This document shows, piece after piece, positions 3-21,735 of a DNA stretch of 64,000 bases. The notes beneath the pieces are model-generated. The model worked only from the letters and a program-made list of their open reading frames with translations, did not search any database and was not told where the DNA came from. The first letter of the stretch is position 1. The number at the start of each line of letters is the position of its first letter. Made by a program: the position numbers and the translations under genes. The stretch comes from an uncultured Oscillospiraceae bacterium (GTDB lineage: Bacteria; Bacillota; Clostridia; Oscillospirales; Oscillospiraceae): assembly GCA_947632005.1 (NCBI GenBank), contig CANRNU010000008.1, positions 1 to 64,000 of the forward strand, written 5' to 3'.

Positions 3-116
3 GCGCCTTTAGGCGCCGCCAACATTATGCCCTTACAGGGCTTGTGCAGGCCACCCGCTATGCGGGTGGTCCTGACTCTTCTTCTCCGGACCGGAGAGGC
101 GTGCGCGTCTACGCGC
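3..116. other. cluster of short palindromes after the yfhO gene
   Basis: This G+C-rich stretch next to the end of the minus-strand yfhO gene holds four short inverted repeats: GCGCC 3-7 with GGCGC 12-16, CCACCCGC 51-58 with GCGGGTGG 62-69, TCTCCGG 83-89 with CCGGAGA 91-97, and GCGCG 103-107 with CGCGC 112-116. No T-run follows any of them on the minus strand, so this is not a textbook terminator. It may still end or stabilise the transcript. I see no gene in positions 1-108. Confidence 0.3.
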
Positions 117-2725: not shown

Positions 2726-2741
2726 GCAGCGGGGAGAGAGC

Positions 2742-2770
2742 TTGACACATATTGCCGATACGAGTATAAT
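2742..2770 (+). promoter_or_regulatory. consensus promoter for the small lipoprotein gene
   Basis: TTGACA (2742-2747), a 17-nt spacer and TATAAT (2765-2770): a perfect match to the housekeeping consensus at both hexamers. The start would be near 2777, giving a leader of about 60 nt before the ATG at 2839. Confidence 0.9.
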
Positions 2771-2838
2771 AAACCAGCTGTGACCCGGGGAACGGGGCAG
2801 CCGAAAGACAACACGAAAACGCAAAGGAGATATCTGAC

Positions 2839-3291: not shown

Positions 3292-3310
3292 TATACCGGG
3301 AATAAAGCGA

Positions 3311-3342
3311 CCGGCCCTGTCCCACGGACAGGGCCGGTTTTT
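3311..3342 (+). terminator. intrinsic terminator of the lipoprotein gene
   Basis: A perfect 12-bp stem (3311-3322 with 3326-3337), a 3-nt loop CAC and five T residues. It also lies just past the end of the convergent glycan operon, but on that strand no T-run follows the stem. Confidence 0.9.
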
Positions 3343-3343
3343 G

Positions 3344-4366: not shown

Positions 4367-5969
4367 TTGTGTCCCCTCCTTCGATTTGTGTTTTGGTATC
4401 GGTCTTGAATTTGGAGACGGCCAGATCCCGGAGCGAATGGATGAGGAAGCGAAACTCCACGGTACGGAAGAAACATAGGAAAAAGACAGCGCTGGGTATC
4501 GCCACGCACACGCAGCCATGGACCAGAAAACCGGCAATACCTGTCAGGGGAATGTGCCGGCAGAGCCACCAGCACAGCAGGCCAGAGCAGATGACGATGG
4601 CCTTGTAAAGGAGATTCTTGAGGAAATACCCCCGGGGAGAGCACTTCAGCGCTACCTTGTGGATGACGATGGGGTCGAAGATGATGTTGACCAGGGCGGC
4701 ACAGTTGGTACTGATGACGCACCCGGCGATGCCTACACGGGGGACTAGATAGAGGCAGACTGCCATATTTACGATCATGCCCAGAACGGGGCGGTATTTG
4801 ATCTGCTGGAACAGCCCCATGGTACCCCGACAGGTATTGAGATAGACCTTTTGGCCGTTGAGATATACCTCGATGCCGAGCCACAGGGCCAGGGGCGTGA
4901 CAGCGGTAACGCCGCTGGCGGCAGTGAAGGACGTGACGACGAACCGCGGACCCACCCACATGGAAATGAAATCGTCGGCCAGCACAGCCACGCCGATGGC
5001 CCCCACGCCGTACAGCCAGGCGGAGGAGAAATTCACCACTCGAAATACGAGCCGGGACCAGGCCAGGTTGCCGGTGGAGTACAGGCTGCCGAGGGAGGCG
5101 TTGATAGAGCGGGTGAATGTGGACAGAAAGGCCTCCAGATTTGCCCGGACCGAGATATAGTTGGCATACAGGGCGGTATAGGAAATACCAACAAATCCGG
5201 TCAGGATGATGCTGTCCGTGCCGCGGATCACAACGGCGTTCAGCTTATAGATCAACAGGGCGGAACAATCCTTAAAGAATTCCTTCAGCTCTTCCCGGGA
5301 GACACGATCGTTTACTTTTTCCTTCAGATAGGGATACCGTTTGTCGCAGATGGCGGCATACAGCAGGTTGCGCACCAGGGACTGGGCGATCATAACGCCG
5401 ATATAGACGATGAAGTTCTTGGTAAGATGCAGCGCCAGGATCTGCGCGACGCAGCCCACGATGTTGATGGCATAGCCGGTCACCTGCAGCAGATAGGTCT
5501 TCTGAGTGGCGGACACAAAGGCAGACTTGTAGGCGAAGAACCAATAGGAGGAGGCGCTGTTGAACAGGTACAGCAGGAAGATAAAAGCAGGGTTCAGCCG
5601 GAGCTCCAGAAGATGGTCGTAGTCCCGGATGAGCCGGGGCAGGAACGGGATCAGACACAGTCCCAGTCCCACGATCACCCAGCCGATGATCCGGTATACT
5701 TGGCGGTAGAGCTTCATCAGCACCTGGACCCGATGGCGGTCACCCTGTTCAATGGGCTTATAGAGCTTGAACACGATGGCGGAGCCAAAGCCCAGCTCCG
5801 TCAGGGACAGCATGGACAGGATGGAGCTGAAATAGCCCTCGATCCCCAGATAGCTGGTCCCCAGGGTGCGGATGAATACCGAGCGGATAATAAAGTTCAA
5901 AAGGACCACCAGGAAGGTGGAGATGAGATTCGTTATGAAATTGAGGAAGGAGTTCTGCGTTCGGGTCAT
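4359..5969 (-). CDS. polysaccharide flippase (PST/Wzx-type, MOP superfamily)
   Basis: 536 residues from the ATG at 5969. This start is preferred over a codon 27 nt upstream because GGAGG lies 6 nt before it and the family begins with RTQNSFLNFITNL. The protein has about 12-14 hydrophobic helices throughout, with the typical first helix and IRTLGTSYLGIEGYFSSIL, as in oligosaccharide flippases. It should move the lipid-linked repeat unit across the membrane so it can be polymerised or ligated outside. It sits between the last ATP-grasp gene and the terminal GT2 gene and overlaps the latter by 8 nt. No separate Wzy-like polymerase is obvious in the operon; the 720-residue membrane protein at 17382-19544 is the only candidate. 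Confidence 0.87.
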   Translation of the reverse strand: MTRTQNSFLNFITNLISTFLVVLLNFIIRSVFIRTLGTSYLGIEGYFSSILSMLSLTELGFGSAIVFKLYKPIEQGDRHRVQVLMKLYRQVYRIIGWVIVGLGLCLIPFLPRLIRDYDHLLELRLNPAFIFLLYLFNSASSYWFFAYKSAFVSATQKTYLLQVTGYAINIVGCVAQILALHLTKNFIVYIGVMIAQSLVRNLLYAAICDKRYPYLKEKVNDRVSREELKEFFKDCSALLIYKLNAVVIRGTDSIILTGFVGISYTALYANYISVRANLEAFLSTFTRSINASLGSLYSTGNLAWSRLVFRVVNFSSAWLYGVGAIGVAVLADDFISMWVGPRFVVTSFTAASGVTAVTPLALWLGIEVYLNGQKVYLNTCRGTMGLFQQIKYRPVLGMIVNMAVCLYLVPRVGIAGCVISTNCAALVNIIFDPIVIHKVALKCSPRGYFLKNLLYKAIVICSGLLCWWLCRHIPLTGIAGFLVHGCVCVAIPSAVFFLCFFRTVEFRFLIHSLRDLAVSKFKTDTKTQIEGGDTNA

Positions 5970-6038
5970 AAGAAGCCTCCGGGGGGCGATAGACAAAAAG
6001 AGCAGTTCAGCGTATCGCGGGAAGATTAAAGAGGTGCC

Positions 6039-7031
6039 TCAGTCGGGGCTGTTAAGCAGGTCTTTCAGTCTCTGGTACGCGCCCGGTCCGTCCAACTGAA
6101 AAACAATGTTGCCGGGATACTTGATATTGCCTTCGATGAGCTCCACGCCGTCCGGCAGGATGGCCACGTCCCAGCCGATATAGCCAATATGCTCTGTCAT
6201 GAAAGTGGCCTGGCGGACAGTGTCCAGCAGTTCATCCCAGAAGGGGACCTGAAGGCCGGGCATGATGTGTCCGGTTGTGGGATGGCATAACACGGGCATC
6301 CCGTCCAGGTCTGCACCACGAGCGGTGACAATGCCGGTCTCCAGGTCCAGGGGATAGGCCACGCCGCCGTGATGGAAGTTATCTACGAATTGCCCGGCAC
6401 CGCCGCAGCGCAGCCCGGCGCCGATAGGCACGACCCGGCTGCCCTTTCGGGCGGCAATGATGCGCACGGTATTAACAGAATCGGGGTTGACGGCGGCCAG
6501 CACAGGATGCTGTTGGATGATCTCTTCCAAGAGATACGCCCCGGAGCCAAATTTTTCCAAAAGTGTTTTGGGGTCTGTCTGGTCCCGCCGGAGGAACTGT
6601 ATGCCGTGGCCCTGGGTGCTGCGGCAGGGCTTGACCAGGAAAGTCTCGTGGCGCGCCAGAAAGGCGGCGAGCTGCTCCGGCGTGCTGTCCGGCAGGTACA
6701 GCCAATCCCGCCGGATGAACCGGGCAAAGTGCTGGTTGAACTGATATTTATCGCTGTAGAAGATCTCCTCCGTGGAGGGGTATCCATGGCACAGCAGGTC
6801 GCTTATTTTACAATTCTTCCGCCAGATGAGGAACTGATCCAGCATGGGACCGGAGTATTCGTAAAGACGAAGGGATCGAAATTCATTAACCTGTATGCGC
6901 CCGTGCAGGTAACAGCGCACAAAACCGAAAAAGAGACTGGCGACAGGCCACCCTGTCTGCTCGTGTATCTCCGACAATGTGACCATGATATGATGGAGAT
7001 ACTTTTTCTTTGCACGAATATAAGAGAGCAT
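6039..7031 (-). CDS. sugar-transfer-associated ATP-grasp protein (type A, copy 1)
   Basis: 330 residues from the ATG at 7031, which has AGAGG about 10 nt upstream; a TTG 21 nt earlier has no ribosome-binding site. ATP-grasp features are visible: Lys 134 in FLVKP, a Gly-rich STQGHG loop, Glu-Glu at 169-170 (LLEEI), the family-typical SVNTVR (185-190), Trp-Asp at 287-288 and ELIEGN (299-302 region) as metal ligands. This matches the ATP-grasp family often found beside sugar transferases (Pfam ATPgrasp_ST). ATP-grasp enzymes join an acid to an amine, hydroxyl or thiol through an acyl phosphate. Substrates here are unknown. It pairs with the gene at 7074-8165, just as the type A copy at 11601-12632 pairs with 12692-13762. 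Confidence 0.82.
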   Translation of the reverse strand: MLSYIRAKKKYLHHIMVTLSEIHEQTGWPVASLFFGFVRCYLHGRIQVNEFRSLRLYEYSGPMLDQFLIWRKNCKISDLLCHGYPSTEEIFYSDKYQFNQHFARFIRRDWLYLPDSTPEQLAAFLARHETFLVKPCRSTQGHGIQFLRRDQTDPKTLLEKFGSGAYLLEEIIQQHPVLAAVNPDSVNTVRIIAARKGSRVVPIGAGLRCGGAGQFVDNFHHGGVAYPLDLETGIVTARGADLDGMPVLCHPTTGHIMPGLQVPFWDELLDTVRQATFMTEHIGYIGWDVAILPDGVELIEGNIKYPGNIVFQLDGPGAYQRLKDLLNSPD

Positions 7032-7073
7032 ACGAATTATTCCTCTTGTCAAAGAGTATAGTGTCGAGGCAAC

Positions 7074-8165
7074 TTACAGTCGCAGCTTTTTATCCCGAAA
7101 GACTTCGGTCAGGATCTCCTCGGTCATATCACCAAAGGTTGGGCCGCAGTTTTCCTGATTCTGTCCGATATGGCAGTTGAATTCGATCAGAACCGGGTCG
7201 CCCTGCTCGTCCACCGAGAAATCCCAGCCGATCAGGGCCAAATGAGGCATTTTCAGAGCAAGATCCAACGCGGTGGCCCGGACTTTTTCCCAGGAGGGAA
7301 TGGCAAAACCTTCAAACCGGACACCTTCGTCGGTCTGCTCAACAAAGTTGTCTTTGCCTCCTTTGTGGGTATAGGCCAGCTTTTCCAGGGTCCCGTCTTC
7401 CCGCACGATTGCCTGATACCCACCTTTGGAGACGTTGTCTACCCGGCTGTCGGCGTGGCCGATGCGAAGAATGGCGGAGAGGAGGTAAGCCTTGCCGTGA
7501 AAGACCAGTGTCACCAGCCGGAGCGTGTTTACACTGGAGTGGTTGAAAGCGGCAAGGGAGGGGTGTTGGACCAGCACCCGCTGGACGATATGATCTGCCT
7601 GGACATAGTGGGTCATCATGTCCTCTATAGCAGATGGCGGAGTGTTCTCATCTACGGGTAGAAAAGATATCCCTGAACCTCCGCCCGTATCCCGCGCAGG
7701 TTTGAAGATGTATTGGCCACAGGTCAGGCGGGATGCGGCTTCTTCCGGGGTGATGGGCCGCAAATCGTCTTCCCGGTAACAGCCATCGGCATACTTGAAA
7801 ATGGTCTCAGGGCGTTTTAAACCGGGGAGGATCAGATGGTAGAGATTCTTGTCGGTCATCTGACGAACATAGCACTCGTTGTCAAAATAGGGGATGACAT
7901 AACGGCGGAAAATATCCGCCGGAATATACCGGGGGTCGACGATACCGGTGCGCAGGAAATCTCGTTTGAACCAATAAATCTTTGGCCGCACGCCAAACTG
8001 CTTCCAATATGGGACGACCTTCTCCCGGTATGCCTTATAAAATGACGCATCAAATTCGTGCTTCCGCATGGCTCTGCGGCAACGAAGGTTGAAAAAATGG
8101 CATAGGATATCCAGGTCAATGGTATAGTAAAGCCGATCATAGAGAATCTGTTTTGGCGTACGCAT
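7074..8165 (-). CDS. sugar-transfer-associated ATP-grasp protein (type B, copy 1)
   Basis: 363 residues; AGGAGGT lies 7 nt before the ATG. The N-terminal 140 residues (YWKQFG, KIYWFKRDF, RYIPADIFRRYVIPYFDN) are shared with the gene at 12692-13762 and absent from the type A copies. The ATP-grasp core follows: Lys 155, GGGSG 161-165, SVNTLR 211-216, VDNVSKGGY, IGWD 312-315 and Glu 328 / Asn 330 in LIEFN. The end, GPTFGDMTEEILTEVF, is nearly that of its paralogue (GPIFGDLTDEVLAEVF). It is the upstream member of a B-A pair with 6039-7031, separated by 42 nt. It is a likely ligase of glycan modification in the cytoplasm; acceptor and acid are not known. Confidence 0.82.
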   Translation of the reverse strand: MRTPKQILYDRLYYTIDLDILCHFFNLRCRRAMRKHEFDASFYKAYREKVVPYWKQFGVRPKIYWFKRDFLRTGIVDPRYIPADIFRRYVIPYFDNECYVRQMTDKNLYHLILPGLKRPETIFKYADGCYREDDLRPITPEEAASRLTCGQYIFKPARDTGGGSGISFLPVDENTPPSAIEDMMTHYVQADHIVQRVLVQHPSLAAFNHSSVNTLRLVTLVFHGKAYLLSAILRIGHADSRVDNVSKGGYQAIVREDGTLEKLAYTHKGGKDNFVEQTDEGVRFEGFAIPSWEKVRATALDLALKMPHLALIGWDFSVDEQGDPVLIEFNCHIGQNQENCGPTFGDMTEEILTEVFRDKKLRL

Positions 8166-8279
8166 AGGGGGGACCTCCTGAGGGGCGTCTGCAACGGGAC
8201 GAGACAGACAACAAACATAAATATATAGGTATAATATCTGTTGAAAATTAAGGGCGGCGGATTCGGAAACTGCACGATC

Positions 8280-9191
8280 TTAATGGATAGATATTTCGCC
8301 GCGGAGAAGCTGGGGCACAGCTTGGGTATAGGGCGTGTCTGGGTCCATATAAGTGTCATCGTGTTTTTCTGTGCGAGCCTCCGGAGGAGGCGGTGTCATA
8401 TAGTCGCCATAGCAGTCGGTGAGAAGCCGGTCATAGCCGACGGGAACGGGGACGGTGAGGCTCTCATAGGGAAGCATCAATGTGTCACGAAAATCCTCTG
8501 CATGCCAATAGTGCCGGATCGGGTAGAAACCATCCAGACACTGGACCATCGTGCTGTCCTGGTTCCGGGTACGGTAAAGAAATTGGAGCAGAGAGATGAG
8601 GTGTTGCCGGCCAATCAGGCCTTGGCAGAACCGGCAGATCTTATGGAGAAGGGGCTTTTCCGCCGCCGGACGGTTGGCCCGATAATCCACGCCCATAAAC
8701 AGGTATGCGACCTTTTTCCTGAGAGAGCAAAGGAAGGGAGGCCTGCAACAGTTGTCCAGTGGAAAGATAGCCAGGCACATACCCATGTGGTAGGGAGCCA
8801 GCCTGGGCCGCTCCCGTAGATAGGTTAGATCCGAATTTGTGACAGCAGTAGTGTCGCTTCGGCGGAAGCGGACCAGCATCTGGGCATAGGTCGGATCGGT
8901 GACCGGATTTTGAAGAAAATAGGGGGCATGGGTACCGAACTGCTGGTTGGTCATGCGCCAAAGTTTATCAAAGCTCTCCCGGGGCATCATGATATCTACG
9001 TCGTCATCCCAGGGGATAAAGCCTTTGTGACGGATGGTGCCCAGAAGAGTTCCGAAATACACCCAATATTTGATGCCGGCCTGCTTGCAGAGTCGATCAA
9101 ATTCCTCCAACAGATCCAGATAAACGGCGATCATCCGTTGTTTCTTTTCTGTGATTGGATAGCTGTCGTAATTTTGTTCGTTGAGACTCAT
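8280..9191 (-). CDS. LicD-family phosphotransferase
   Basis: 303 residues; AGGAG lies 6 nt before the ATG. The LicD signature is clear: YFGTLLGTIRHKGFIPWDDDVDI at 45-67, with the nucleotidyltransferase-fold Asp cluster 62-66. LicD enzymes move phosphocholine or other phospho-groups from a CDP- or similar donor to a sugar hydroxyl of teichoic acid or capsule. No choline uptake or activation genes (licA, licB, licC) are in the window, so the transferred group could be phosphocholine, phosphoethanolamine, a polyol phosphate or another residue. The gene lies in the middle of the operon between a GT2 gene and the first B-A ATP-grasp pair. The AT-rich 114-nt gap downstream and the 158-nt gap upstream (9192-9349) are the longest in the operon and could hold internal promoters, but I see no convincing one. 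Confidence 0.88.
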   Translation of the reverse strand: MSLNEQNYDSYPITEKKQRMIAVYLDLLEEFDRLCKQAGIKYWVYFGTLLGTIRHKGFIPWDDDVDIMMPRESFDKLWRMTNQQFGTHAPYFLQNPVTDPTYAQMLVRFRRSDTTAVTNSDLTYLRERPRLAPYHMGMCLAIFPLDNCCRPPFLCSLRKKVAYLFMGVDYRANRPAAEKPLLHKICRFCQGLIGRQHLISLLQFLYRTRNQDSTMVQCLDGFYPIRHYWHAEDFRDTLMLPYESLTVPVPVGYDRLLTDCYGDYMTPPPPEARTEKHDDTYMDPDTPYTQAVPQLLRGEISIH

Positions 9192-9349
9192 ATACTACTC
9201 CTGTTCTGCCTGATTGATGCGACCTCGCATGGGGGTCTGTCATCCACCAAGGAAAAGTCAAATCAGATAAGTCCTGTGTCAGAGTATGGTCTGTGTCTTG
9301 GCTAAAGATGTGACACTGCGCTTGTACACAGGCACAACAACGGGCAGGG

Positions 9350-10393
9350 TCAATGGGCCTGCGTTCCGTTGGTTTTGCTTTTGGGAGCCGGATCCAGCTT
9401 CATTATCGTGATCAACACGACAGGCAGGTATAGCCGCAGTTTGAGCAGCCACACATAGGGTCGAATGAACAGAGGAAGCCCCTTAGACGATATGGCCTTT
9501 GTAAGTCCGGACTGGCGCAGCCGACAGGCGACCGCTCTTGTCGTGGGGAGCAAACTGCCGCAGCGGGAATACTCAAGGGATATCCCGCCGACGATCCTGC
9601 GCGTGAAAAACCCGCTGATCTGCCGGTCCAGTGCCGGGGAATGGCCGCCAAGGGTGGCGAGCATGTAATCCTGGGCCATTTTTAACTGTAGAAAATAATC
9701 CGTCCGATAATGGTGCAGGTTTGAGTTTTTTACCATCCGGTAGATATACAGCTGCTCATGCGTGATGTACATGGACTCGGCGTGCGTTGCACAGTCATAG
9801 ATCATGGCGACATCCTCGAAGACGGTGATGCGGTCGTCCGTGATAAAATGATCGACGAGCAGCTGCCGCTTTACCGCCTTGGACCAAAGCATACCGGGAA
9901 AGAGTTGGGTGCCAAGGGGCCGCCGGCGAAGGTCGCACAACATATAAGGATATATCTCCTGCTCCATCCGGGCCTTGTCGTAAAACCCTTCTTTTGCCAG
10001 AATGGGGTACTCTGTGGGTCTTGTGTCACGGGTGTGTTCAAAAACGACCATGTCCGGCTGGCCGTTGCTTTCAATGATCCCGTGCAGGGTCTCCAGCCAG
10101 TGAGGGACTACCCAGTCGTCTGCGTCCACAAAACAGATGTATGACCCCTGGGTGTGAGACAGGCCGTTCCGCCTGGCTGGCGTGGGTCCGGCATTTTGCT
10201 GGCGGATGACCTGTACCCGGCCATCCTTGGCGGCGTACTCGTCGCAGATGGCCTGGCTGCTGTCCGAGGAGCCATCATCTACAAGGAAAAGGTCAAAGTC
10301 AGAAAAACTCTGTGCCAGAATACTGTCTATGCACTGGTGAAGATATGGCTCTGCGTTGTATACAGGCACGATAATGGAGAAAAAGGGAGGCAT
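9350..10393 (-). CDS. family 2 glycosyltransferase (paralogue of the operon's last gene)
   Basis: 347 residues beginning FFSIIVPVYNAEPYLHQC, a standard GT2 start. VDDGS lies at 38-42 and the DxD motif (VDADDW) at 89-94. The whole length aligns with the GT2 protein at 3344-4366, including the middle region (MEQEIYPYMLCDLRR, VFEDVAMIYDC). The tail has the same short hydrophobic, basic segment (LWLLKLRLYLPVVLI-like), which could associate with the membrane. It starts 11 nt after the ATP-grasp gene at 10405, so the two are probably co-translated. Each of the two GT2 paralogues lies on the 3' side of ATP-grasp genes, which fits a duplicated block. The sugar it uses cannot be told from the sequence. 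Confidence 0.88.
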   Translation of the reverse strand: MPPFFSIIVPVYNAEPYLHQCIDSILAQSFSDFDLFLVDDGSSDSSQAICDEYAAKDGRVQVIRQQNAGPTPARRNGLSHTQGSYICFVDADDWVVPHWLETLHGIIESNGQPDMVVFEHTRDTRPTEYPILAKEGFYDKARMEQEIYPYMLCDLRRRPLGTQLFPGMLWSKAVKRQLLVDHFITDDRITVFEDVAMIYDCATHAESMYITHEQLYIYRMVKNSNLHHYRTDYFLQLKMAQDYMLATLGGHSPALDRQISGFFTRRIVGGISLEYSRCGSLLPTTRAVACRLRQSGLTKAISSKGLPLFIRPYVWLLKLRLYLPVVLITIMKLDPAPKSKTNGTQAH

Positions 10394-10404
10394 AGTCTAC
10401 TCCT

Positions 10405-11493
10405 TTACCATCGCAGATCAAAATACGGCGACAGCTGCGCACGGAGCCCATGCTGGGTGGTGAACTGAGGACCGATAAACTGGCCAGTACTGTTGCTCTC
10501 CACCACGATCCAGCCACCGTCGGTCAATGCCAGATCCCAGCTGATATACGGCTGCTCCGGATAGGACAGGGCGAGCTCCGAGGCCAGGGCCAACATCTCC
10601 TCCCAGCGGGGCACCCGAAAGCCGAGAAGTTGCGTACCGGTGTCTGGATGGACCAGCTCCCGCTCCAGGACCTCGGTGGTACCCGGGGTGGTGACGATCC
10701 CGTTGTCAGTATCCAAAAGACACACGAAGCCGCCCGCACCGCCGTTGTCCACGATGCTATCGCCCCGTCCGACGCGAAGGAATGTAAACAAGATATGAGC
10801 CTGACCGTCCATTGTGAAGGTAGCACAGCGGACAGTATTTACAGACTGGGGATGGAGCCGGGCCATGGCCTCACACTGGACGATGGGTTCCTCCAAGAGG
10901 ACCCGGTCCGACCGGTGTTGCTCAAGAAATGCGGAGGGAGAAAAGCCGCTGGCCGTATCGCAGAAGTGTACGCCATTGCCGCTGGAATCGTCCCGAGGTT
11001 TGATGAGAAAGCGCGGATGCTTTTCTACGAACTGGCGGAGATCCTCCTCTGTGGTGCCGTCATCGAGTTTGATGGCGTCACGGTGGTAGTATTTCTTGAA
11101 CTGTTCATAGGATCTCCATTTATCTCGGAGGACATTTTTGTCCTCGGCAGTTCCCAGTCGGTCGCAGACATCCTGCTTTTCAAATTCGTTGACAAATTCC
11201 ATCCGACCGGAGTGATTCAGTCTGGGGTAATCGAAAAGAAAATACTCATTGAAGGCACATACATACCGGACAGCGCAGTACCACATATCTCGTTTTAGAT
11301 GCCGGATATAGGCCGGATTAGCCTTTTGCTCCGGCGTGCAAAACAAGTCGATATTTTCCTGAGCGTGCCGGTGAAGCTCTCCGCCCTGCAGTCTGTCTGC
11401 CGCCCGGAGAAGGGGCGCGAGAAGATGTGCCGAAAAGGGAACTGCATCCACCACGTTCTGTCCTGCTCTTCTCATTTTTTCCGCGATTGACAT
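10405..11493 (-). CDS. sugar-transfer-associated ATP-grasp protein (type C)
   Basis: 362 residues from the ATG at 11493, which has AGGAGG 9 nt upstream; an in-frame extension further upstream carries no ribosome-binding site. The core residues are present: Lys 165 (FLIKP), SSGNG, Glu-Glu 201-202, SVNTVR 217-222, VDNGGAGGF, SWD 318-320 and VVESN (Glu 332, Asn 334). The N-terminal third differs from both the type A and type B copies, and the usual GWD is SWD, so this is a third subtype. The His-Pro after the Glu pair in the other copies is replaced (QCEAMARLHP). It lies between the type A gene and a GT2 gene. It is probably another acyl-ligase acting on the glycan or its precursor; a different substrate from types A and B is my inference. 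Confidence 0.8.
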   Translation of the reverse strand: MSIAEKMRRAGQNVVDAVPFSAHLLAPLLRAADRLQGGELHRHAQENIDLFCTPEQKANPAYIRHLKRDMWYCAVRYVCAFNEYFLFDYPRLNHSGRMEFVNEFEKQDVCDRLGTAEDKNVLRDKWRSYEQFKKYYHRDAIKLDDGTTEEDLRQFVEKHPRFLIKPRDDSSGNGVHFCDTASGFSPSAFLEQHRSDRVLLEEPIVQCEAMARLHPQSVNTVRCATFTMDGQAHILFTFLRVGRGDSIVDNGGAGGFVCLLDTDNGIVTTPGTTEVLERELVHPDTGTQLLGFRVPRWEEMLALASELALSYPEQPYISWDLALTDGGWIVVESNSTGQFIGPQFTTQHGLRAQLSPYFDLRW

Positions 11494-11600
11494 GATAGGA
11501 TTCCTCCTGGTGTGATATGTTCGGGCAGGGCTTCCGACCCGAAAGAAGACAGAGGTGCGGCATGACAGGGACAAAATGCCAGTGTGCCGGAAGACAGGAG

Positions 11601-12632
11601 TCAGGCTTGTCGGAGAAAAGCTTTCAGTTTTCTGTAAACGCCGTTGCCACCAAGCTGTATCAGAGTAACCATGGGATCATCATTTCCCTCGATGAGTTCT
11701 ACGCCGTCAGGCAGGACGGCCACGTCCCAGCCGACCCAACCGATGCGGGGAGAGACAAGGGCGGCCTTGGATACTGTGTCCAGAAGAATATCCCAGTGTG
11801 GGACTTGGAAGCCCGGCATGATCTGTCCGGAGGCGGGATGGCGCAGGTATTCGTTGCCGGAGAGGTCTGCGCCGGGGCCGGTGACGATGCCTGTGTCAAT
11901 GTCTAACGGATAGGCACAGCCGCCGGCATGAAAATTGTCCAGATGAGACCCAGCGCCACCTGCCCGCAGCCCAGCACCAACTGCCATGACCTGTCCTTTG
12001 AAGCGGGCGGTGACAATGCGCACAGTATTGACAGAAGAGGGATTTAGTGACGCCATATCCGGGTGTTGGACGATATATTCCTCCAACAGTGCCCCGCTGC
12101 TCTGGCATTCGGCGAAAAAGCTGTCGATGTCCAACTGTTCCCGGTGGCAGAGGGTCACACCCTTGCCCTGTGTGCCAGCGGGGAATTTTCTCAAAAACAT
12201 CGGGTGACGGTCAACGAAGGCACGGAACTGTTCCTGCGTACAATCCGGCGCGTAGAGCCACTCTCGCCTGATAAAAGAGCGAAAAGCCTGGTTGAATTGG
12301 TGTTTGTCCCAAAAGAGGTCAATATCCTCTCTGGTGAAATCCGGATCGAAATATTTCTTCTTCAACCGGCTGGCACCCCTGGACAGGAGAAATTCTCTCT
12401 TCTTTTTGAGAGAATAGTCATACAGGCGCAGCACCAGAAACTGTTCGAACTGGGAGCCGTAAACGCACTTGTGCATCGCGTAGGAAAGGAACATTCCTCC
12501 GGGAGTGCGGCCCGTTCGTTGTGCGACCGGTTTCAGTTCACGGCTATGCTGTTTAAACCAGAGCAGGGGATGGCGTACCGGATTTTCTGCTGTACGGTTG
12601 AAGTTGACAGAGGAAGAGGTGTTAGCTTGCAT
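11601..12632 (-). CDS. sugar-transfer-associated ATP-grasp protein (type A, copy 2)
   Basis: 343 residues from the ATG at 12632, 8 nt after AGGAG; a TTG two codons earlier is too close to that site. It is clearly a paralogue of 6039-7031: DKHQFNQAFRSFIRREWLY against DKYQFNQHFARFIRRDWLY, VGAGLRAGGAGSHLDNFHAGG against IGAGLRCGGAGQFVDNFHHGG, and IMPGFQVPHWDILLDTV against IMPGLQVPFWDELLDTV. Core residues: Lys 149, GTQGKG, Glu-Glu 184-185, SVNTVR 200-205, GWD 301-303, Glu 315 and Asn 317. FLRKF replaces FLVKP around the first ATP-binding Lys. The N-terminal 45 residues are variable. It follows the type B gene at 12692 by about 60 nt. It is expected to be a cytoplasmic ligase; substrate unknown. 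Confidence 0.82.
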   Translation of the reverse strand: MQANTSSSVNFNRTAENPVRHPLLWFKQHSRELKPVAQRTGRTPGGMFLSYAMHKCVYGSQFEQFLVLRLYDYSLKKKREFLLSRGASRLKKKYFDPDFTREDIDLFWDKHQFNQAFRSFIRREWLYAPDCTQEQFRAFVDRHPMFLRKFPAGTQGKGVTLCHREQLDIDSFFAECQSSGALLEEYIVQHPDMASLNPSSVNTVRIVTARFKGQVMAVGAGLRAGGAGSHLDNFHAGGCAYPLDIDTGIVTGPGADLSGNEYLRHPASGQIMPGFQVPHWDILLDTVSKAALVSPRIGWVGWDVAVLPDGVELIEGNDDPMVTLIQLGGNGVYRKLKAFLRQA

Positions 12633-12691
12633 GATCAATACTCCTTAGATGGTAAAAACTGCCACCAGATCAGGTGCCGAAGGCCCGAGCG

Positions 12692-13762
12692 TTACCGCCG
12701 CCCGAATACTTCGGCCAGCACCTCGTCAGTCAGGTCTCCGAAGATGGGGCCATTGGTGGCGTGGGCCGGGGCAGGGATCACATTGTACTCTACCAGGACA
12801 GGCTCCCCGTCGGTCGCCACAGCCATGTCCCAGCCGATCAGCTTAAAATGACTCATTTTAGCGGCGTGGTTACAGACGGCATCCAAAACGCGGTCATAGG
12901 AAGGGATCGTCACATCGGCGAACCGGATGCCATTCTCATAATGATCCGAGTAGCGGAAATGGTGATCCATCCCAAGCCTGTCCAACCTTCCATCTGGGAG
13001 AACAGTAGCCTTGAAACCGCCCTGGGAGGTGTTGTCTACCTCGCTGTCGGCGCCGCCTACCCGGAGGATGGCTGCCAGCACATGAACTTGAGTGCCGTGC
13101 AGGAAGGTGATGACCCGGACGGTGTTCAAAGACCCTGGATTGAGCCGGGCCAGGTCTGAATGCTGCGCCAGTTTTTCTTGTATGATGAAATTCCGGCCGG
13201 ATCGCCAGAGGATATCAAGAGCGTCTTGCTCAGACAGATCGTCACTGTCATAGAACTGAATGCCGTGGCCTTGGCCGCTGTTTACAGACGGCTTGACGAT
13301 GACACGTCCGTGGCCGTGGAGACAGGAGGCGGCCTCACCTTCAGTCAAAAGGTTCAGGGCGTCATCATAATACTCGCCGGCGATACGTTTGACCACTGTC
13401 ACGGGCCGGCGAATGTCCGGAAACAGGACGCTGTGCAGACATTTGTCCTGAAGAGCCTTGGCAAAGATTAGATTATTGTAATGAGGAATGATATGGGAAA
13501 ACCACATATCATCCGGAATATACTTTGGGCTGAAAGGCCGGTGCTCGTTGGCCAGCAGCTCGAACCAGTACCGTTTTGGCGTACGGGTCCGGAACTGCTT
13601 CCAGTAGGGACGGATGACAGAGCTGTATTCTGATGCTACCTTTAAGTTGGGCCCCAGTCCTTTTAGGTCCTGCCGGGCATCCTGCCGAGCCCCGCGAGCC
13701 AGAAGCCAGGTCTCCACGCCGGTATACAACCTATCATACATTGGGCGCAGCTTACTGCTCAT
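12692..13762 (-). CDS. sugar-transfer-associated ATP-grasp protein (type B, copy 2)
   Basis: 356 residues. It is a paralogue of 7074-8165, sharing RPYWKQF, KRYWFELL, KYIPDDMWFSHIIPHYNN and the end GPIFGDLTDEVLAEVF. Core residues: Lys 157 (VIVKP), SGQGHG 162-167, QEK 195-197, SLNTVR 211-216, VDNTSQGGF, IGWD 309-312, Glu 325 and Asn 327. Its ATG lies 11 nt inside the end of the GtrB-like glycosyltransferase gene, so translation is coupled. It begins the run of three adjacent ATP-grasp genes. The order B-A here and again at 8165-6039 shows that a two-gene unit was copied, or acquired twice, and then diverged. It may use a different acid from copy 1; this is inferred only from the divergence. Confidence 0.82.
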   Translation of the reverse strand: MSSKLRPMYDRLYTGVETWLLARGARQDARQDLKGLGPNLKVASEYSSVIRPYWKQFRTRTPKRYWFELLANEHRPFSPKYIPDDMWFSHIIPHYNNLIFAKALQDKCLHSVLFPDIRRPVTVVKRIAGEYYDDALNLLTEGEAASCLHGHGRVIVKPSVNSGQGHGIQFYDSDDLSEQDALDILWRSGRNFIIQEKLAQHSDLARLNPGSLNTVRVITFLHGTQVHVLAAILRVGGADSEVDNTSQGGFKATVLPDGRLDRLGMDHHFRYSDHYENGIRFADVTIPSYDRVLDAVCNHAAKMSHFKLIGWDMAVATDGEPVLVEYNVIPAPAHATNGPIFGDLTDEVLAEVFGRR

Positions 13763-14714
13763 TGGTCTGGTTCACCCTTTCCTCGTCGGGGGTCCGAATC
13801 ACTTGGCGGACCTGAAACTGAGGCATATTGCTCACAGTCATATAAATGCGACCGATATACTCCCCGCACAGGCCCAGCAGCATGATGATGACGCCGCCCA
13901 TGAACACGTCCACGGCAATGGAGGTGGTGAAGCCCGCGGCAATATTGGAGTTGAGGAGTTTTCGGATTACCATGACCATGGCCAGGATAAATCCGAACAG
14001 GGCGCAGATCAAGCCGATGAACATGGCCATACGCAGCGGTACGATGGAGAAGTTGGTAAAACCGGTCAGCCACAGTCCCAGCATCTTTTTCAGGGTATAG
14101 TTGGACTGGCCGGCGATCCGGTCCCGGTGCGCCATGTCCACGTTGGCGTACCGCAAGGCCACATGGGACAGATACCCGCCCATGGAGGGGAAGGGGCTCT
14201 TGTATTTTTTCAACGCATCTATAGCCATCCGGTTCATGGCGTGGTAGCTGGAGATGGCGATGTCCTTGGGTTTGGTGCCGTTGAGCTCCAGCACTTTGCC
14301 GTTGAGCCAGCTGGTGAAGCGCTTGAACCAGGAGTGGTGCTTGTGAGGGAACTTGGCGTACACCAGGTCGTACCCCTCCTCCACTTTTTCCACCAGTTTG
14401 AAGAGCTGGTCCGCCGGGTGCTGACCGTCGTCGTCCATATATACCAGAACGTCGCCGGTCACATAGGGGATGGCAGCCATTTTTGCGACCGTCTGGCCGA
14501 AGTTTCGGGACAGATTCACTCCGATGATCTTTCTGTCCTCCCGGCACAGTGCCTCGATCGCGTCAAAGGTATCGTCATTGGGATAGTCGTTGACCAGAAT
14601 GATCTGGTAATCGTACGCCGACTGGGCACGAAACACGTTCTGCAGTTCATGGACAACGGGACCAATGGTCTTGGCCGACCGATAACATGGAATGGCGACG
14701 GAGATCGTTTTCAT
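13752..14714 (-). CDS. GtrB/ArnC-like polyprenyl-phosphate glycosyltransferase
   Basis: 320 residues; AGGAGGT precedes the ATG. It has a GT-A domain ([14 protein letters not shown] start, [15 protein letters not shown], and YMDDDGQHP as the metal motif) followed by two membrane helices near 228-250 and 265-290, then a short cytoplasmic tail. This is the build of enzymes that put a sugar on undecaprenyl phosphate (GtrB, ArnC and DPM1 types). Such sugar-lipids feed membrane GT-C enzymes on the outer face, so this gene likely supplies the YfhO protein and/or the 720-residue membrane protein of the same operon. It overlaps the acyltransferase gene by 4 nt (ATGA) and the next ATP-grasp gene by 11 nt. 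Confidence 0.9.
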
Positions 14715-15448
14715 TTTTCCGTACCTCCTGAAAATTCATCTCGCAGAAACAACAGCCGCTCCAGACCTGCCATATCTGGCCAGGAGTTGAAAAGGTCGTA
14801 ATTTTGACGTATCACATCCGCGGGCAGTTCCCACCAACGGCTTTCCAGCAGCAGACGGACAGCGTGCTCATCAAAGCGTTTTTTGAGCGGACGCGCAGGG
14901 ACTCCCGCTACAATGGTATAAGGTTCCACATCGTGGGTGACAACTGCACCGGCAGCGATTACAGCTCCGGTCCCCACAGTGGCACCCCGTAAAATGCAAG
15001 CATTAGCACCGATCCACACGTCATTTCCGATGACACAAGGCTCCGTGAACCGGTCATACCCAGTCTTTTCCTCCGGCATCAGGCCGAAATCCTTATTGTC
15101 GTAGAGAAAGGAATGGGTGGTCAGTCGGGAGTAGTCGTGATTTGCTCCGCCGATGGACACATTCCAGGAAATGGAACAAAAGGCACCGATCTCCGCGTGC
15201 CAGATAACCGTACCTCGACCGGTATAGCTATATCGCCCCAGCTGGGCGCCATAGACCATGTTGTATCGCTGCAAAGCGGCACGCTCACCCAGTATGCAGT
15301 CAGATACCCGGGAGAAATCCCCGATGGTGGCGTGCTCCCCCATCGTAATGTTTTCTGCCCATACGCTGCGGTAGACGGCGGCGGTGACCGGACCGGTCAC
15401 ATTCCGGCAATGTGCATCCGGGGCAATGTAAAGACGATTTCTATCCAC
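14711..15448 (-). CDS. left-handed beta-helix (hexapeptide) acyltransferase
   Basis: 245 residues. Hexapeptide repeats run from about residue 15 to 185 ([49 protein letters not shown]), ending with the usual [16 protein letters not shown]. The catalytic His is in GGANHDYS. The pattern is that of CatB/xenobiotic and NeuD/WbbJ-type O- or N-acetyltransferases. In this context it could acetylate the 4-amino group made by the aminotransferase encoded upstream, or a sugar hydroxyl, using acetyl-CoA in the cytoplasm. It overlaps the GtrB-like gene by 4 nt and lies 1 nt after the ATP-grasp gene at 15450, so the three are tightly coupled. The acceptor is not determined. Confidence 0.85.
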
Positions 15449-15449
15449 G

Positions 15450-16643
15450 TCATTGCACCTCGATCTCTATCTGGGTCAAAAGCGCATCCAACCGTTGGCG
15501 GCAGTCGTCCGGGCTGTCCCCGGACACGATGACCTGTCCGATGCGGTCGCCGGTCTGGGAAAACGCGTGCACTTGATCGCCCTCCCGGACGAGCAGCCGG
15601 ACCTGGTGGACATTCTCAGGCAGGGGTTTCGGTAACCGGATGGAGTGAACGGTGCCGGTACGGGGAGCCTGAAGCATGGCAGCGGCGGCGGCCTGGGGTT
15701 GTGAGGGTCTGGCGGCAAAATAGCCGGACACATCCTGTCCTAAAGCAGCCATAAGTATCATTCGGTAATAGTCGACACCGTAATAGAGGCTTACTAACTC
15801 CGGCAGGCAAGTGGCACCTGCCCGTGCCGTAAGTTCGATAATACACGGCTCACCGTTGTGAAGGACAAGATCTACGTTGACAGCGCAGTTGTCGAATCCA
15901 CAGGCACCGACAGCCCGTTCTACTTCCGCGCGGATGCAGTAGCAAAGAGTTTCGTTCTGGTCCAGAGGCACGAAATGCCCCACGGGGATGTTGGCGCCTC
16001 CGACAGAAAGGAAAGACAGTGTTCCGTCCGGCAGAACAAAAAGGATGTTTCCGTTTTGCACGAAGGCTTCTGCGCCGATGTTCTCACCGGCGGCAAAGGC
16101 TTCCGCCAAACAGAAATCTTGACCAGAGAGCGCCAGAGCGTCCTGCATCGCTCTGCGAGCTGTCTCTGCATCACGGACTACATATACACCGTTACTTCCC
16201 TGCAAGTCCACGGCTTTTACCACCAGAGGAAGGCCAAGCGCAGCAATGGCACAGTCCAGATCGGACAAGCCCCGCAGTACCCGATATTCCGGGGTGCGTA
16301 TACTTCCCGCCGAAAAGGCCTTCTTCATTGCCAGCTTGTTCACGGATATTTCCGCCGCAGCCATACTGGGGCCGGGCAGGCCCAGCATATCGCAGGTGTA
16401 GGCCTGGGCGGGAAGGCATATCTCCGAACAGCAGGAGGTCACGCCGGACACAGCATATTGCTTCGCCGCTGCTGCGATGGCGGGCGGGTCAGTAATATCT
16501 GTATAGGAAACTACGTCCGCCGCCGGGATGCCGGGATAATCACCGGGGATGGTAGCCACGACGGTCCCCAACCCCATGGCCTTAGCGGCCTGTATGAGTG
16601 GGACCTGGGCCGGACCGGCGCCCAGTATCATGATCTTTTTCAT
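15450..16643 (-). CDS. ATP-grasp carboxylate-amine/thiol ligase (PurT/PylC-like)
   Basis: 397 residues. The N-terminal Rossmann-like preATP-grasp domain starts [24 protein letters not shown]. Then come a conserved NKLAMKKAF and the ATP-grasp domain with [16 protein letters not shown] (ATP-binding Lys and Gly loop), [16 protein letters not shown], and the metal-binding end [22 protein letters not shown]. This is the carbamoyl-phosphate-synthase-L/biotin-carboxylase branch, unlike the five shorter ATP-grasp proteins downstream. Relatives ligate amino acids or small acids. It lies between WbqC and the acyltransferase, next to the amino-sugar genes, so it may activate or attach an amino acid to the 4-amino sugar. 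That role is inference; no substrate can be read from the sequence. Confidence 0.85.
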
Positions 16644-16656
16644 GGGGGACGTCCTC

Positions 16657-17385
16657 CTAATCCCTCCGGGGGAACTTCATATATTCCGGCGCCTTGGGCC
16701 CGGTCATGAACAGCAGGTCGAGAATGCTGACGTTGTGGGTGAATTCCCCGTGGAGCTGGGGATATTCCGGGTAACCGGCATAATCCATGTACGCCAGTTC
16801 GATCCCGGCGTTCTCAAATACCTCGTCCACGATATAATCCTTCGCCGCGGGACCGGACAGGTAGTAGTCCCCGCCAGCGGATCTCACCAGCGCCGCCAGC
16901 CGTTCCGTCTTTCCCTCGGCCAGCGTATAGTCACTGGACCAGGTAATCCTGGTGCCGATACCAAGTACGGCGCAAATCTCCGTGAGGAACAGGTGGTTGA
17001 TCTGGCTGAGCATTTCCATCCCCGCGGCCCGCTCGTACAAACTGGCAAACAAGGGCTCATAGACTTTAAAATAGGGGGCTTTCGCGTAGCTGTAGCGAAT
17101 GGCTTTCCAGTGGTCGGAAGTCCACTGGGAGCCGGTGACGCGAGTCTCGTTGATTTTCTGATAAAACTTTCCCTTGGTGTCCACGGGGATGGTTAACCAC
17201 TGCAGACCGCCCGTTGTCTTGATCTGATTGCGGTTGCGCCAGTCCCGGCGGGTGTACTGCATGTCATCGTAGAGGATGAACTCGTCCACCAGACCGATGA
17301 TGTCGAAATACCCCTTCCAGGGGATATAATTGGATTGTAGGATCGCGATTTTTTTCATAAGAATACGCTTTCTTGGGGCAATCAT
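16657..17385 (-). CDS. WbqC-family protein
   Basis: 242 residues. The family core begins at residue 10 with KKIAILQSNYIPWKGYFDIIGLVDEFILYDD and continues with YTRRDWRNRNQIKT and WLTIPV, the WbqC hallmarks. The first ATG overlaps the upstream stop (ATGA), which suggests coupling, but its GGAGG is only 1 nt away; the ATG at 17358 fits the family better and has only a weak AAG-type site, so the true start is open. WbqC proteins occur in O-antigen and capsule loci, often beside 4-amino-sugar genes. Their role is not well established, and modification of the amino sugar has been suggested. The neighbours here (aminotransferase two genes upstream, ATP-grasp ligase next) fit that idea. Confidence 0.85.
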   Translation of the reverse strand: MIAPRKRILMKKIAILQSNYIPWKGYFDIIGLVDEFILYDDMQYTRRDWRNRNQIKTTGGLQWLTIPVDTKGKFYQKINETRVTGSQWTSDHWKAIRYSYAKAPYFKVYEPLFASLYERAAGMEMLSQINHLFLTEICAVLGIGTRITWSSDYTLAEGKTERLAALVRSAGGDYYLSGPAAKDYIVDEVFENAGIELAYMDYAGYPEYPQLHGEFTHNVSILDLLFMTGPKAPEYMKFPRRD

Positions 17386-19544
17386 GCCTCCGGGGATATC
17401 AGGCTGTAGGCGTTGGTGAAATATATGAGCCCCTCCGGACTGCGGGAGGCGGCAAACTGGCTGTTCCCGCCGATGGGGGAGAAGGTATATTCCTCCCTGT
17501 CGATGGTCTGCTCACCAGTGAGAGCTTCCCCGTTCCGGAAGTAGTAGGTCATGCCGTTCTGCTCATGCCAGCCGGTGTAGTCGGGGTCGGCAGGGCCGAT
17601 CCTGGAGATGCGGAAAATGTAGACGTTGCCCTGCAGCTGGGCCTCTACCAGGGCTTGGACGGGCCCGTAGTCCAGGGTGAGATATTGCATCAGCAGCACC
17701 ACGGAGGAGACATCGTCGGTCATGAACCGCACGTCATCCCGGAAAAACGCGTCCGCGTAAAGCCGCCCCTCTGTGCGGTAGGTGTCGCCGCCGTCTCCCC
17801 AGAGGTCACGGTTGGAGGGATAGTGGGAGTCATGGAAGGGGTCCAGGTTATTGTCATAGATGTTGGTGATGAACAAGGTGTCCGGGTGGGCGTTCGCATA
17901 GTCCTCCGTGGCGCGCTCCCTGCCGAACAGGTCGTCCGGCGTGGCGGCATCCAGGACGTGGGGCACATGAAAGAGACTGACGCAGCAGCAAAGTGCCGCA
18001 GCGGCGGCAAACAGGCCTGCCAGGACCAGGGAGAACGTTTGGTGGCCGCCGGATGAAGAGGGACTGGCGGCGGTCAGGGCCATGAGGAGCACAGTGACCA
18101 GGGCCGGCAGAACGACCACCAGAAATACCCGCGTGGGGAAACGGCCCTGAATAACGAGATACAGAAGGAGTATCCCTGCGCCGCCCACTGCACACAGTGC
18201 GCACAGGAGCTCCAGCCACCGGGCCTTTCCCGCGTACCAGACCAGCCCAACGGTCAGACCGAGAAGACTGACAAGACACAGTGCCCGCCAGAGCATCTGG
18301 GGGTCATCTTGTATCTTGGCCAGGAGAGTGATGACAGATGTGGACAGAGAGGCCGCTTCCGGCTGCTCCTGAAGCTCGCTTTTGTGACGGGCGGAATAGG
18401 AGCGGGCCAGGTCCCGGAGGGTGTCAGTGGTGATGCGCTCATCCATGAAAAACCAGCCCCGCAGAAGCTTTCCCAGTTCCGGGGGGATACCGACGCTCTC
18501 AAAATCCTCGTCGGTCATGTCTTCGATGAGAAAATCTACCACACGGGAACGGGCGGACTCAGCCGAGCTGAAGGCGCCGTTCCTGGCTAGGGAGGTGCTG
18601 CGGGTGACGTATTTACTGGCGGAGAAGAGGGCCATCACCGCGAGGAAAACACATGCGACAGCGGCCAGCCGTCCGGGCCAGCCCTTGCCCCTGTCCAGCA
18701 CCGTGCGTAGGCACTGATATCCGACCGCAAGGGAGAAGAAGCAGAGAAGACATTGGCCGGTGTCCTTTCGCTGGAGGATGCAAAGGAGCATGAGGATGAC
18801 GCTTGCCGCGTCCGTGCAGATATGGCCCGCGCGGCTGTCTGTCTTTCCGCGGCAGAGGACCAGAGCCACCGCGCCGCATCCGGCGACAGCAGGCGTGACG
18901 GTAAAGGAGAGCTCTGCTATGGTATACATGAAGATACCGGCGCAGGTCAGGGCGTGGATCGCCGTACCGGCCACCAGGACCCACCGGGAGTCCCGCAGCA
19001 ACAGGAACACGCACCGCCCAATGATGGTCAGAGACAGGGCGATGATGACGAAATGGTAGCAGGTATACCACCAGAAATCGGGGTCGATGGAGTAAAATGA
19101 CCCGATGAGTCCGCAGAACAGGACATGGGAGAAGGTGGCGGTAGCGCCCCGGAGTCCCCGCGTGGGCACAGAGCGGATGCTTCCGAGGATGCCGACTTCG
19201 TCGCTGGTCATGAAGGAGGGGACGGTGACCCGGCTGGCCCAGAGGAAGAAGAGTCCCGTGAGCGCGGCTGCCGCCAGCCAGCAGTACCGATCTTTCCGCA
19301 GGGCGGACCGCAGCCGGGCGCTATATGAACGGCCCCTGTCCGTGAGGGCTGCAGCCAGGCACAGCACCAGCCAAGCGCCCATCCGGGCCGCGCGGCCAGG
19401 CAGGAACTGTCCGTCCCGGAAGGGCAGGAACAGGTCCGCGCCGATGCGCCGCTCGATGCCGCTCTCCAAAAGCGCGAACAGCAGCGCTGCGGCTGCCAGC
19501 GCCCCCAGAATGCGCCCGGTCCGCCGGGCGTTGCCGCGTGTCAT
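17382..19544 (-). CDS. polytopic membrane protein, GT-C-like, with a cell-wall-binding-like tail
   Basis: 720 residues. About ten hydrophobic helices lie between residues 10 and 540. The first external loop carries SFMTSDEVGIL, an acidic motif placed like the catalytic Asp/Glu of GT-C glycosyltransferases. A soluble outer region from about 545 to 655 follows. The last 60 residues read GWHEQNGMTYYFRNGEALTG and then QTIDREEYTFSP, which looks like one and a half cell-wall-binding (CW_binding_1, choline/glucan-binding) repeats; the Trp is at 659. I recognise no named family for the whole protein. It overlaps the aminotransferase and WbqC genes by 4 nt each (ATGA). It could be a sugar transferase or polymerase on the outer face. 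The function is inferred. Confidence 0.7.
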   Translation of the reverse strand: MTRGNARRTGRILGALAAAALLFALLESGIERRIGADLFLPFRDGQFLPGRAARMGAWLVLCLAAALTDRGRSYSARLRSALRKDRYCWLAAAALTGLFFLWASRVTVPSFMTSDEVGILGSIRSVPTRGLRGATATFSHVLFCGLIGSFYSIDPDFWWYTCYHFVIIALSLTIIGRCVFLLLRDSRWVLVAGTAIHALTCAGIFMYTIAELSFTVTPAVAGCGAVALVLCRGKTDSRAGHICTDAASVILMLLCILQRKDTGQCLLCFFSLAVGYQCLRTVLDRGKGWPGRLAAVACVFLAVMALFSASKYVTRSTSLARNGAFSSAESARSRVVDFLIEDMTDEDFESVGIPPELGKLLRGWFFMDERITTDTLRDLARSYSARHKSELQEQPEAASLSTSVITLLAKIQDDPQMLWRALCLVSLLGLTVGLVWYAGKARWLELLCALCAVGGAGILLLYLVIQGRFPTRVFLVVVLPALVTVLLMALTAASPSSSGGHQTFSLVLAGLFAAAAALCCCVSLFHVPHVLDAATPDDLFGRERATEDYANAHPDTLFITNIYDNNLDPFHDSHYPSNRDLWGDGGDTYRTEGRLYADAFFRDDVRFMTDDVSSVVLLMQYLTLDYGPVQALVEAQLQGNVYIFRISRIGPADPDYTGWHEQNGMTYYFRNGEALTGEQTIDREEYTFSPIGGNSQFAASRSPEGLIYFTNAYSLISPEA

Positions 19545-21722: not shown

Positions 21723-21735
21723 AGGTGTCTCCTTG

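Follow-up and report, generated by a model that had tools for sequence, protein, structure and literature searches.

A predicted surface-glycan locus with six ATP-grasp genes, read as an expanded variant of a locus that varies across its genus

Why should one locus encode six ATP-grasp enzymes? The question is raised by a 64,000-nucleotide stretch of DNA from an uncultured Oscillospiraceae bacterium (assembly GCA_947632005.1, contig CANRNU010000008.1; hereafter the window), whose base 1 is base 1 of the contig, so that the contig edge lies there. A one-strand run of genes leads from 21722 to 3344, with gaps of up to ~160 bases or small overlaps between neighbours, and it includes five proteins of the sugar-transfer-associated ATP-grasp family (ATPgrasp_ST, PF14397; hereafter ST proteins, AG1 to AG5) as well as a further ATP-grasp (Table 1). 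Our reading, to which we assign a probability of about 0.6, is that the window holds an expanded form of a variable surface-glycan locus shared across the genus, the diversity of which resides largely in ATP-grasp amino-acid ligases.

The proteins of the window were scanned with Pfam and NCBIfam profiles and judged against the curated cut-offs. All five ST proteins matched PF14397 with 113.5–151.8 bits (cut-off 31.4), and the sixth protein proved to be LAL-like, which bears out the count of the initial annotation, six ATP-grasps in ~10.6 kb. No other PF14397 matches were obtained from the window's genome (77.6% complete); all five fall in the locus. AG1–AG5 keep the Lys, the Arg of SxNTxR, the DN pair, the Asp of WD, and the Glu and Asn of ExN, as expected from the earlier claim of intact ATP- and metal-binding residues. 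The Glu-Glu pair included in that claim holds for AG1, AG3, and AG4, but not for AG2 (Q-R) or AG5 (Q-E); a Gln at the first hinge position is found in 16 of 16 rows of the AG2/AG5 clade versus 4 of 92 other rows. Across the sister loci and the window, the alpha, beta, gamma, and delta groups comprise 38 ST rows, every one of which retains the catalytic residues checked. AG1 and AG4 form a paralogue pair with 48% identity, AG2 and AG5 one with 35%. The AlphaFold2 core of AG4 resembles RimK, LysX/ArgX, and Ddl, as expected for an ATP-grasp fold, and its nearest solved folds are mostly ligases, with ~9–21% identity in the structural alignments; the predicted model of AG5 is of poor quality. Sequence searches gave no convincing solved relatives of the ST proteins, and we found no paper in the open-access literature searched that names the ATPgrasp_ST family or reports a tested function for it. 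The neighbouring GT2, LicD, DegT, and RmlB genes agree with a sugar-transfer context.

The sixth ATP-grasp had been described as PurT/PylC-like. It is a ligase-type ATP-grasp, but LAL-like is the more exact description, since LAL_C2 (51.3 bits, cut-off 29.4) as well as GARS_A and ATP-grasp_3 are over their cut-offs, and among solved chains the closest is 4dim_A (281.5 bits), which was deposited as a phosphoribosylglycinamide synthetase, followed by BacD and the L-amino-acid ligase BL00235. With 50.1 bits against the 850 bits required by the NCBIfam BacD equivalog, the protein is LAL-like rather than BacD.

In order to place the locus within its genus, a set of 35 genomes including the window's own was used; in 30 of its 34 sister genomes, extended regions were read, covering part of their ST sites. 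ST genes are present in all 35 genomes, and the same locus turned up in 21 of the 30 sisters read. The idea of a unique one-off was thus rejected. Where the contig shows it, the head of the locus has a fixed order: RmlB, DegT, a large membrane protein, WbqC or an ATP-grasp ligase (LALp), LAL (with or without an acyltransferase) or the pair o425-o357, and a GT2 gene, GT2c, which is labelled directly ahead of the first ST gene in 20 of 21 loci (unlabelled in G905). The first ST gene is of the beta5 type in 13 sister loci and of the delta type in eight, and is followed by a variable part consisting of ST, LicD, glycosyltransferase, and flippase genes. After beta5 come gamma in G906, G907, G908, and G909, alpha in G913, G903, G889, and G890, Glycos_transf_1 in G902 and G910, Glycos_transf_1 and then alpha in G912, LicD in G915, and beta2-alpha-beta2 in G891, while the window has the order beta5-alpha-gamma-GT2b-LicD-beta2-alpha-flippase-GT2a. 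The number of ST genes per locus ranges from one to five, with G891 carrying five (the fifth diverged, 65.9 bits) together with both LAL and LALp. Judged by gene content and order, the window carries an enlarged version of a surface-glycan locus that varies throughout the genus, and because sister species carry different ligase sets, the ligases look like swappable parts by which the cell surface would be varied.

Two positions of the head are occupied in a mutually exclusive manner, with the strength of these statistics overstated since related loci are counted as independent. Counting the window, all 12 uncut loci with beta5 also have LAL; the seven uncut delta loci lack it without exception and have o425, another ATP-grasp with a LAL_C2 match below cut-off. 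The 18 uncut loci, among them that of the window, divide into six with WbqC and 12 with LALp, and none has both (for LALp in the place of WbqC, see L147:4955-6064). Given that either can fill this position, the role of WbqC may be akin to that of a ligase. WbqC is linked to glycine on 4-amino-4,6-dideoxyglucose (Qui4N) in Shigella dysenteriae 7. Glycine is given as an N-linked amino acid of the S. dysenteriae 7 glycan in a passage of PMC10609480. Among the open-access papers listed for WbqC, none carries the name in title or abstract.

The window's version of the locus is a mosaic. In a genus tree of 89 rows obtained by a quick method, AG5 groups with the sister beta5 genes, AG2 with two G891 copies, AG1 and AG4 fall in an alpha clade of eight, and AG3 groups with four sister genes, the last three groups each scoring 100. 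Best-match identities are 81–89% in RmlB, DegT, and WbqC, 76% in AG5, and 69% in the flippase gene, and only 42–61% in AG4, AG3, GT2b, LicD, AG2, AG1, and GT2a, with the best relative switching from gene to gene among G908, G913, G909, G915, and G891. The GC content from WbqC to GT2a is 0.53–0.59 versus 0.63–0.66 in the flanking genes. This pattern of identity and GC is that of a putative variable surface locus between fixed flanks, and the window unites modules seen apart in its sisters, namely beta5-gamma-GT2 (G906–G909), beta-alpha-flippase-GT2 (G913, G903), and beta2-alpha (G891). A recent tandem duplication was rejected, the AG pairs being only 48% and 35% identical. A clean block duplication of AG5-AG4-GT2b to AG2-AG1-GT2a was also dismissed; the colinearity by itself could be due to chance with a probability of 0.066, and recombination is the better account because the modules have different nearest relatives in the genus tree. 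The same combination of sister modules, the gene-wise change of nearest relative, and the drop in GC would also fit a build-up of redundant ST paralogues, through recombination between serotype-like locus variants, that brings no new chemistry. We hold this to be unlikely; no ST gene in the window is broken, and the fact that all copies keep their catalytic residues while AG4 is only 48% identical to AG1 argues that they have long been maintained as separate enzymes.

Outside the genus, 882 genomes (G001–G882) in overlapping family, order, and phylum samples were searched, with at most six candidates scored per genome in the latter two. PF14397 was over cut-off in 29 of 120 family and 95 of 394 order genomes, and in 90 of 398 phylum genomes when counted among the matches listed, strongest first, many of the weak ones possibly belonging to other ATP-grasp families. 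Five ST genes in one cluster were shown in none of the 882. The largest clusters belong to another family of the order, G446 with three intact genes and one broken and G487 with three. Both adjoin a flippase-like gene (42–43% identical to that of the window) and a CDP-glycerol phosphotransferase gene; GT2 and EpsG genes are also found at the former, and a further ATP-grasp at the latter. The cluster of G446 (L091:8067-12361) adjoins a teichoic-acid-like gene set. ST pairs within 5 kb were seen in G445, G290, G312, G377, G698, G029, and G095 (one split). In G735, two beta-type ATPgrasp_ST domains are fused into one protein of 751 aa, followed by a GH3-family gene (L097:2041-4296). The view that many ATP-grasps are unusual for one locus therefore stands outside the genus; within it, six do not amount to a one-off.

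The candidate substrates come from the neighbours of ST genes in relatives. An alanine racemase gene lies upstream of a stand-alone ST gene, on the same strand and within 1.9 kb, in 18 of 34 sister genomes; the matched domains are at most 433 bases apart in 13 of these and ~1.75–1.83 kb apart in five. All three pairs scanned with Pfam encode a full-length Alr (L161:6973-9134, L172:7373-9548, and L173:7590-9998), a further racemase-ST pair occurs in another genus (L030), and in G886 a shorter Ala_racemase_N protein is encoded between two ST genes. An opine dehydrogenase gene adjoins a beta-clade ST gene in five genomes, G312, G002, G054, G247, and G038 (sites L118:4273-6502, L110:189-2425, L111:9529-11891, L119:597-2823, and L127:2-3330), in the case of G038 on each side. 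In all eight delta loci, o357 is a homologue of ornithine cyclodeaminase (OCD)/mu-crystallin, and G377 has an amino-acid permease and a FemAB-like gene by its ST gene; the GH3-family gene behind the fused protein of G735 belongs to the same kind of context. The racemase, opine dehydrogenase, and OCD-family partners support amino-acid ligation, and the ST enzymes probably ligate amino acids onto a 4-amino sugar. We found nothing in the open-access literature searched on an opine dehydrogenase paired with an ATP-grasp, or on a surface gene cluster combining LicD and ATP-grasp genes. The same neighbourhoods could be taken to mean that the ST proteins work as ATP-grasp kinases, or that their substrates are small molecules instead of glycans, considering that the scanned neighbours of the opine dehydrogenase-ST pair in L110 are fatty-acid-type genes (electron transfer flavoprotein and acyl-CoA dehydrogenase) and that no glycan gene was found among the few neighbours scanned of the racemase-ST pairs in L161 and L172. 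This is very improbable in light of the beta5 or delta gene following an ArnC-like GT2 gene in 20 of 21 genus loci and of the mostly ligase-type nearest folds.

As for the acceptor, RmlB together with a WecE-type aminotransferase gives a 4-amino-4,6-dideoxyhexose. Both TIGR02379 and PRK11706 are over cut-off for the window's aminotransferase (19541-20677), hence Qui4N and 4-amino-4,6-dideoxygalactose (Fuc4N) are not distinguished as its product. Amino acids amide-linked to amino sugars do occur in bacterial glycans, according to a passage of PMC10609480. Alternatively, the ligases could join amines to the carboxylate of a uronic acid, as the TupA-like Cj1438C of Campylobacter jejuni; amidation of the C6-carboxylate of glucuronic acid, as described in PMC11800379, is the closest characterised glycan ATP-grasp chemistry we found. 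A TupA-like ATP-grasp gene adjoins an ATPgrasp_ST gene in G565 (L123:649-2671) and G896 (L156:7225-9614), and a sugar-nucleotide 6-dehydrogenase (>100 bits) was detected in 6 of 13 genomes tested, or 6 of the 12 other than the window's. None of the five ST proteins matches PF14305 (TupA-like) at E≤0.1, however, and a full-length dehydrogenase was not found in the window's genome (G000), G095, G377, G002, G054, G011, or G237, the latter six ST-bearing genomes being 90–100% complete. Marginal partial matches of 27–33 bits pass the Pfam cut-off in G000, G002, G054, and G237, the strongest of which is a 3-hydroxyacyl-CoA dehydrogenase; the best PF03721 match in G000 covers 42 of 187 positions with 26.9 bits (27.6 with neighbours; cut-off 27). 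The racemase, opine, and OCD partners also point to amino acids, though these could supply the amine. Uronate amidation was consequently disfavoured as the general chemistry, with no full-length dehydrogenase found in seven of the 13 genomes tested, and appears improbable for the window.

For the substrates, the bond, the amine used, the order of action, and export, we infer the following scheme. RmlB and the WecE-type aminotransferase would make a dTDP-4-amino-4,6-dideoxyhexose, which would be prepared by WbqC (or the ATP-grasp that stands in for it) together with the LAL-like ligase and, in certain species, an acyltransferase. The ArnC-like GT2c, at 151 bits against 529 for ArnC and 161 against 500 for PgfS, stays under both equivalog cut-offs, and probably loads a sugar onto undecaprenyl phosphate. 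The fixed ST enzyme (beta5, AG5 in the window, or delta elsewhere) and then the variable ST set would act next, each using ATP to convert an amino acid, or an acid derived from one, to the acyl phosphate and then transferring the acyl group to an amine, either the 4-amine of the sugar or that of an amino acid added earlier. The product would be completed and exported by GT2, LicD, and the flippase. The locus had been annotated as producing a repeat-unit glycan. In contrast, an ArnC/PgfS-like GT2 suggests that at least one amino sugar is transferred singly to the lipid carrier, and the profile scans matched none of the locus genes to a Wzy or EpsG family; on the other side, the 720-aa membrane protein, for which the Pfam and NCBIfam scans gave no match, could be a polymerase.

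It had further been proposed that the glycan carries several acids, each added by its own ligase. Acids in the form of amino acids are favored by the ST neighbours in relatives, but one distinct acid per ligase is not favored by the paralogy of AG1 with AG4 and AG2 with AG5, owing to which some of the enzymes may be redundant or act in sequence. Nevertheless, six ligases each adding its own acid at a different position of one repeat unit is an alternative with a real, if less than even, chance, as three ST clades and a LAL are combined in one locus and the differing sister sets look like different decorations. Only three GT2s, one of them ArnC-like, are available to place sugars, and no polymerase family was matched in the locus, both of which speak against it. 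A bolder version of our reading, which we consider rather doubtful, is a modular non-ribosomal assembly line, in which the ATP-grasp series would build a short, species-specific amino-acid chain on a lipid-linked 4-amino sugar in the order WbqC or LALp, LAL, beta5 or delta, and variable alpha/gamma/beta2. In relatives, some of the residues would be D-amino acids or opines. The first ligase would have a non-homologous stand-in in WbqC.

Several observations weigh against the reading of the locus as a variable set of amino-acid ligases. No racemase, opine dehydrogenase, or OCD gene adjoins the ST genes of the window, the associations being drawn from other clades and loci; the profile search gave no opine dehydrogenase match in the window's genome, and its one racemase match is on another contig. 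Opine dehydrogenase is over cut-off in 27 of 394 order genomes, and lies beside an ST gene in only two (G312 and G247). Among the ST neighbours in L112, L113, L115, L124, L138, L158, and L159, no amino-acid link was found. Some ST genes appear outside glycan loci (L110, L115, and the racemase pairs), suggesting that the family is not tied to sugars. GT2c was named from matches under cut-off and the flippase without a model, the acyltransferase and LicD may have other targets, and the incompleteness of the G000 assembly makes the missing uronate pathway weak evidence there. To our knowledge, no glycan structure, substrate, or product is available for any member of the family.

Of the neighbours named in the initial annotation, the three GT2 genes, LicD, the hexapeptide acyltransferase, and DegT were recovered, while the candidate flippase matched no Pfam or NCBIfam model; its name is kept on account of size, place, and 42% homologues that show eight hydrophobic stretches. 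The locus is flanked by two YfhO-family membrane proteins (21736-24447 and 109-2661), and an RHS/YD-repeat protein of 337 aa is encoded nearby at 28440-29453. The hairpin after GT2a is one of 21 terminator-like sites found on both strands of 2600-22000, where 14.5 are expected.

Table 1. Genes and other features of the ATP-grasp locus and its flank, in the direction of the gene run.
Feature	Position	Strand	Evidence
RmlB, dTDP-glucose 4,6-dehydratase, fixed head	20700..21722	-	TIGR01181 475 bits, cut-off 365; best sister matches 82-84%
WecE/VioA-type sugar 4-aminotransferase (DegT)	19541..20677	-	TIGR02379 598 bits, cut-off 435; open reading frame (ORF) caller start 20872, but model match begins at residue 66
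720-aa membrane protein, candidate GT-C-type transferase/polymerase (putative name)	17382..19544	-	homologues in sister loci, 45-60%
WbqC-like protein	16657..17385	-	PF08889 258 bits
LAL-like ATP-grasp ligase (sixth ATP-grasp)	15450..16643	-	LAL_C2, GARS_A, ATP-grasp_3 over cut-off
Hexapeptide acyltransferase	14711..15448	-	PF00132 55 bits; under cut-off in all 25 best of 45 matched NCBIfam models
GT2c, ArnC/PgfS-like GT2	13752..14714	-	NCBIfam PgfS 161 bits, ArnC 151 bits, both under cut-off
AG5, ATPgrasp_ST beta5, fixed first ligase after GT2c	12692..13762	-	PF14397 113.5 bits; orthologues in 13 sister loci
AG4, ATPgrasp_ST alpha	11601..12632 (ORF caller start 12638)	-	PF14397 143.5 bits
AG3, ATPgrasp_ST gamma	10405..11493 (ORF caller start 11574)	-	PF14397 145.1 bits; orthologues in G906-G909, 58-62%
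GT2b glycosyltransferase	9350..10393	-	PF00535 122 bits; 43% identity to GT2a
LicD phosphotransferase family	8280..9191	-	PF04991 120.6 bits; 42% to a G915 gene
AG2, ATPgrasp_ST beta2	7074..8165	-	PF14397 118.2 bits
AG1, ATPgrasp_ST alpha	6039..7031 (ORF caller start 7052)	-	PF14397 151.8 bits; 55% to a G891 copy
Candidate flippase (putative name)	4359..5969 (ORF caller start 5996)	-	69% to G915; 42-43% to genes beside gamma STs in L091/L092
GT2a glycosyltransferase	3344..4366 (ORF caller start 4537)	-	PF00535 126 bits
Terminator-like hairpin, 13 pairs, after GT2a	3310..3338	-	consensus scan of 2600-22000, both strands
YfhO membrane protein	109..2661	-	PF09586 541 bits; labelled in 7/21 sister loci (L144, L145, L147, L154, L165, L166, L169)

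ATPgrasp_ST exceeds its cut-off in roughly one genome in four in every sample, and the racemase, opine dehydrogenase, and OCD partners give specific candidate substrates for the family. The genus comparison shows that the surface locus varies largely by ligase modules. If the proposed chemistry holds, this would be surface variation overlooked by glycosyltransferase-centred annotation, and if the assembly line were true, swaps of ligase modules, more than of glycosyltransferases, would create serotype-like surface diversity in the genus. Compared with PF14397 at large, to which all five proteins belong (113–152 bits), the clustering stands out, as clusters of at least two genes are uncommon outside the genus. 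Cj1438C of the C. jejuni capsule, described in PMC11800379, is similar in that it is an ATP-grasp ligase encoded in a capsule locus, in this case as a fusion with a GT2. It differs in being of the PF14305 type and joining uronate to small amines, whereas no PF14305 match was found among the window's ST proteins and no full-length uronate dehydrogenase in its genome. An alanopine derivative of 4-amino-4,6-dideoxyglucose in the O-antigen of Providencia alcalifaciens O35, known here from a reference title in PMC10609480, is the type of product that the joint action of an opine dehydrogenase and an ATP-grasp on a WecE/VioA-type sugar would be expected to yield. That structure is a Gram-negative O-antigen, and the opine dehydrogenase lies beside ST genes in relatives and not in the window. 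In the ArnC/ArnT and PgfS systems, undecaprenyl phosphate is loaded with sugar by a GT2 of the type of GT2c; the window differs in that GT2c is under both cut-offs and no ArnT model was matched, and we know of no ATP-grasp ligase that is part of those systems. RimK, LysX/ArgX, Ddl, and BacD, which are among the nearest solved folds of AG4, ligate amino acids in an ATP-dependent manner via an acyl phosphate; they differ in that their targets are proteins, a carrier protein, or free amino acids.

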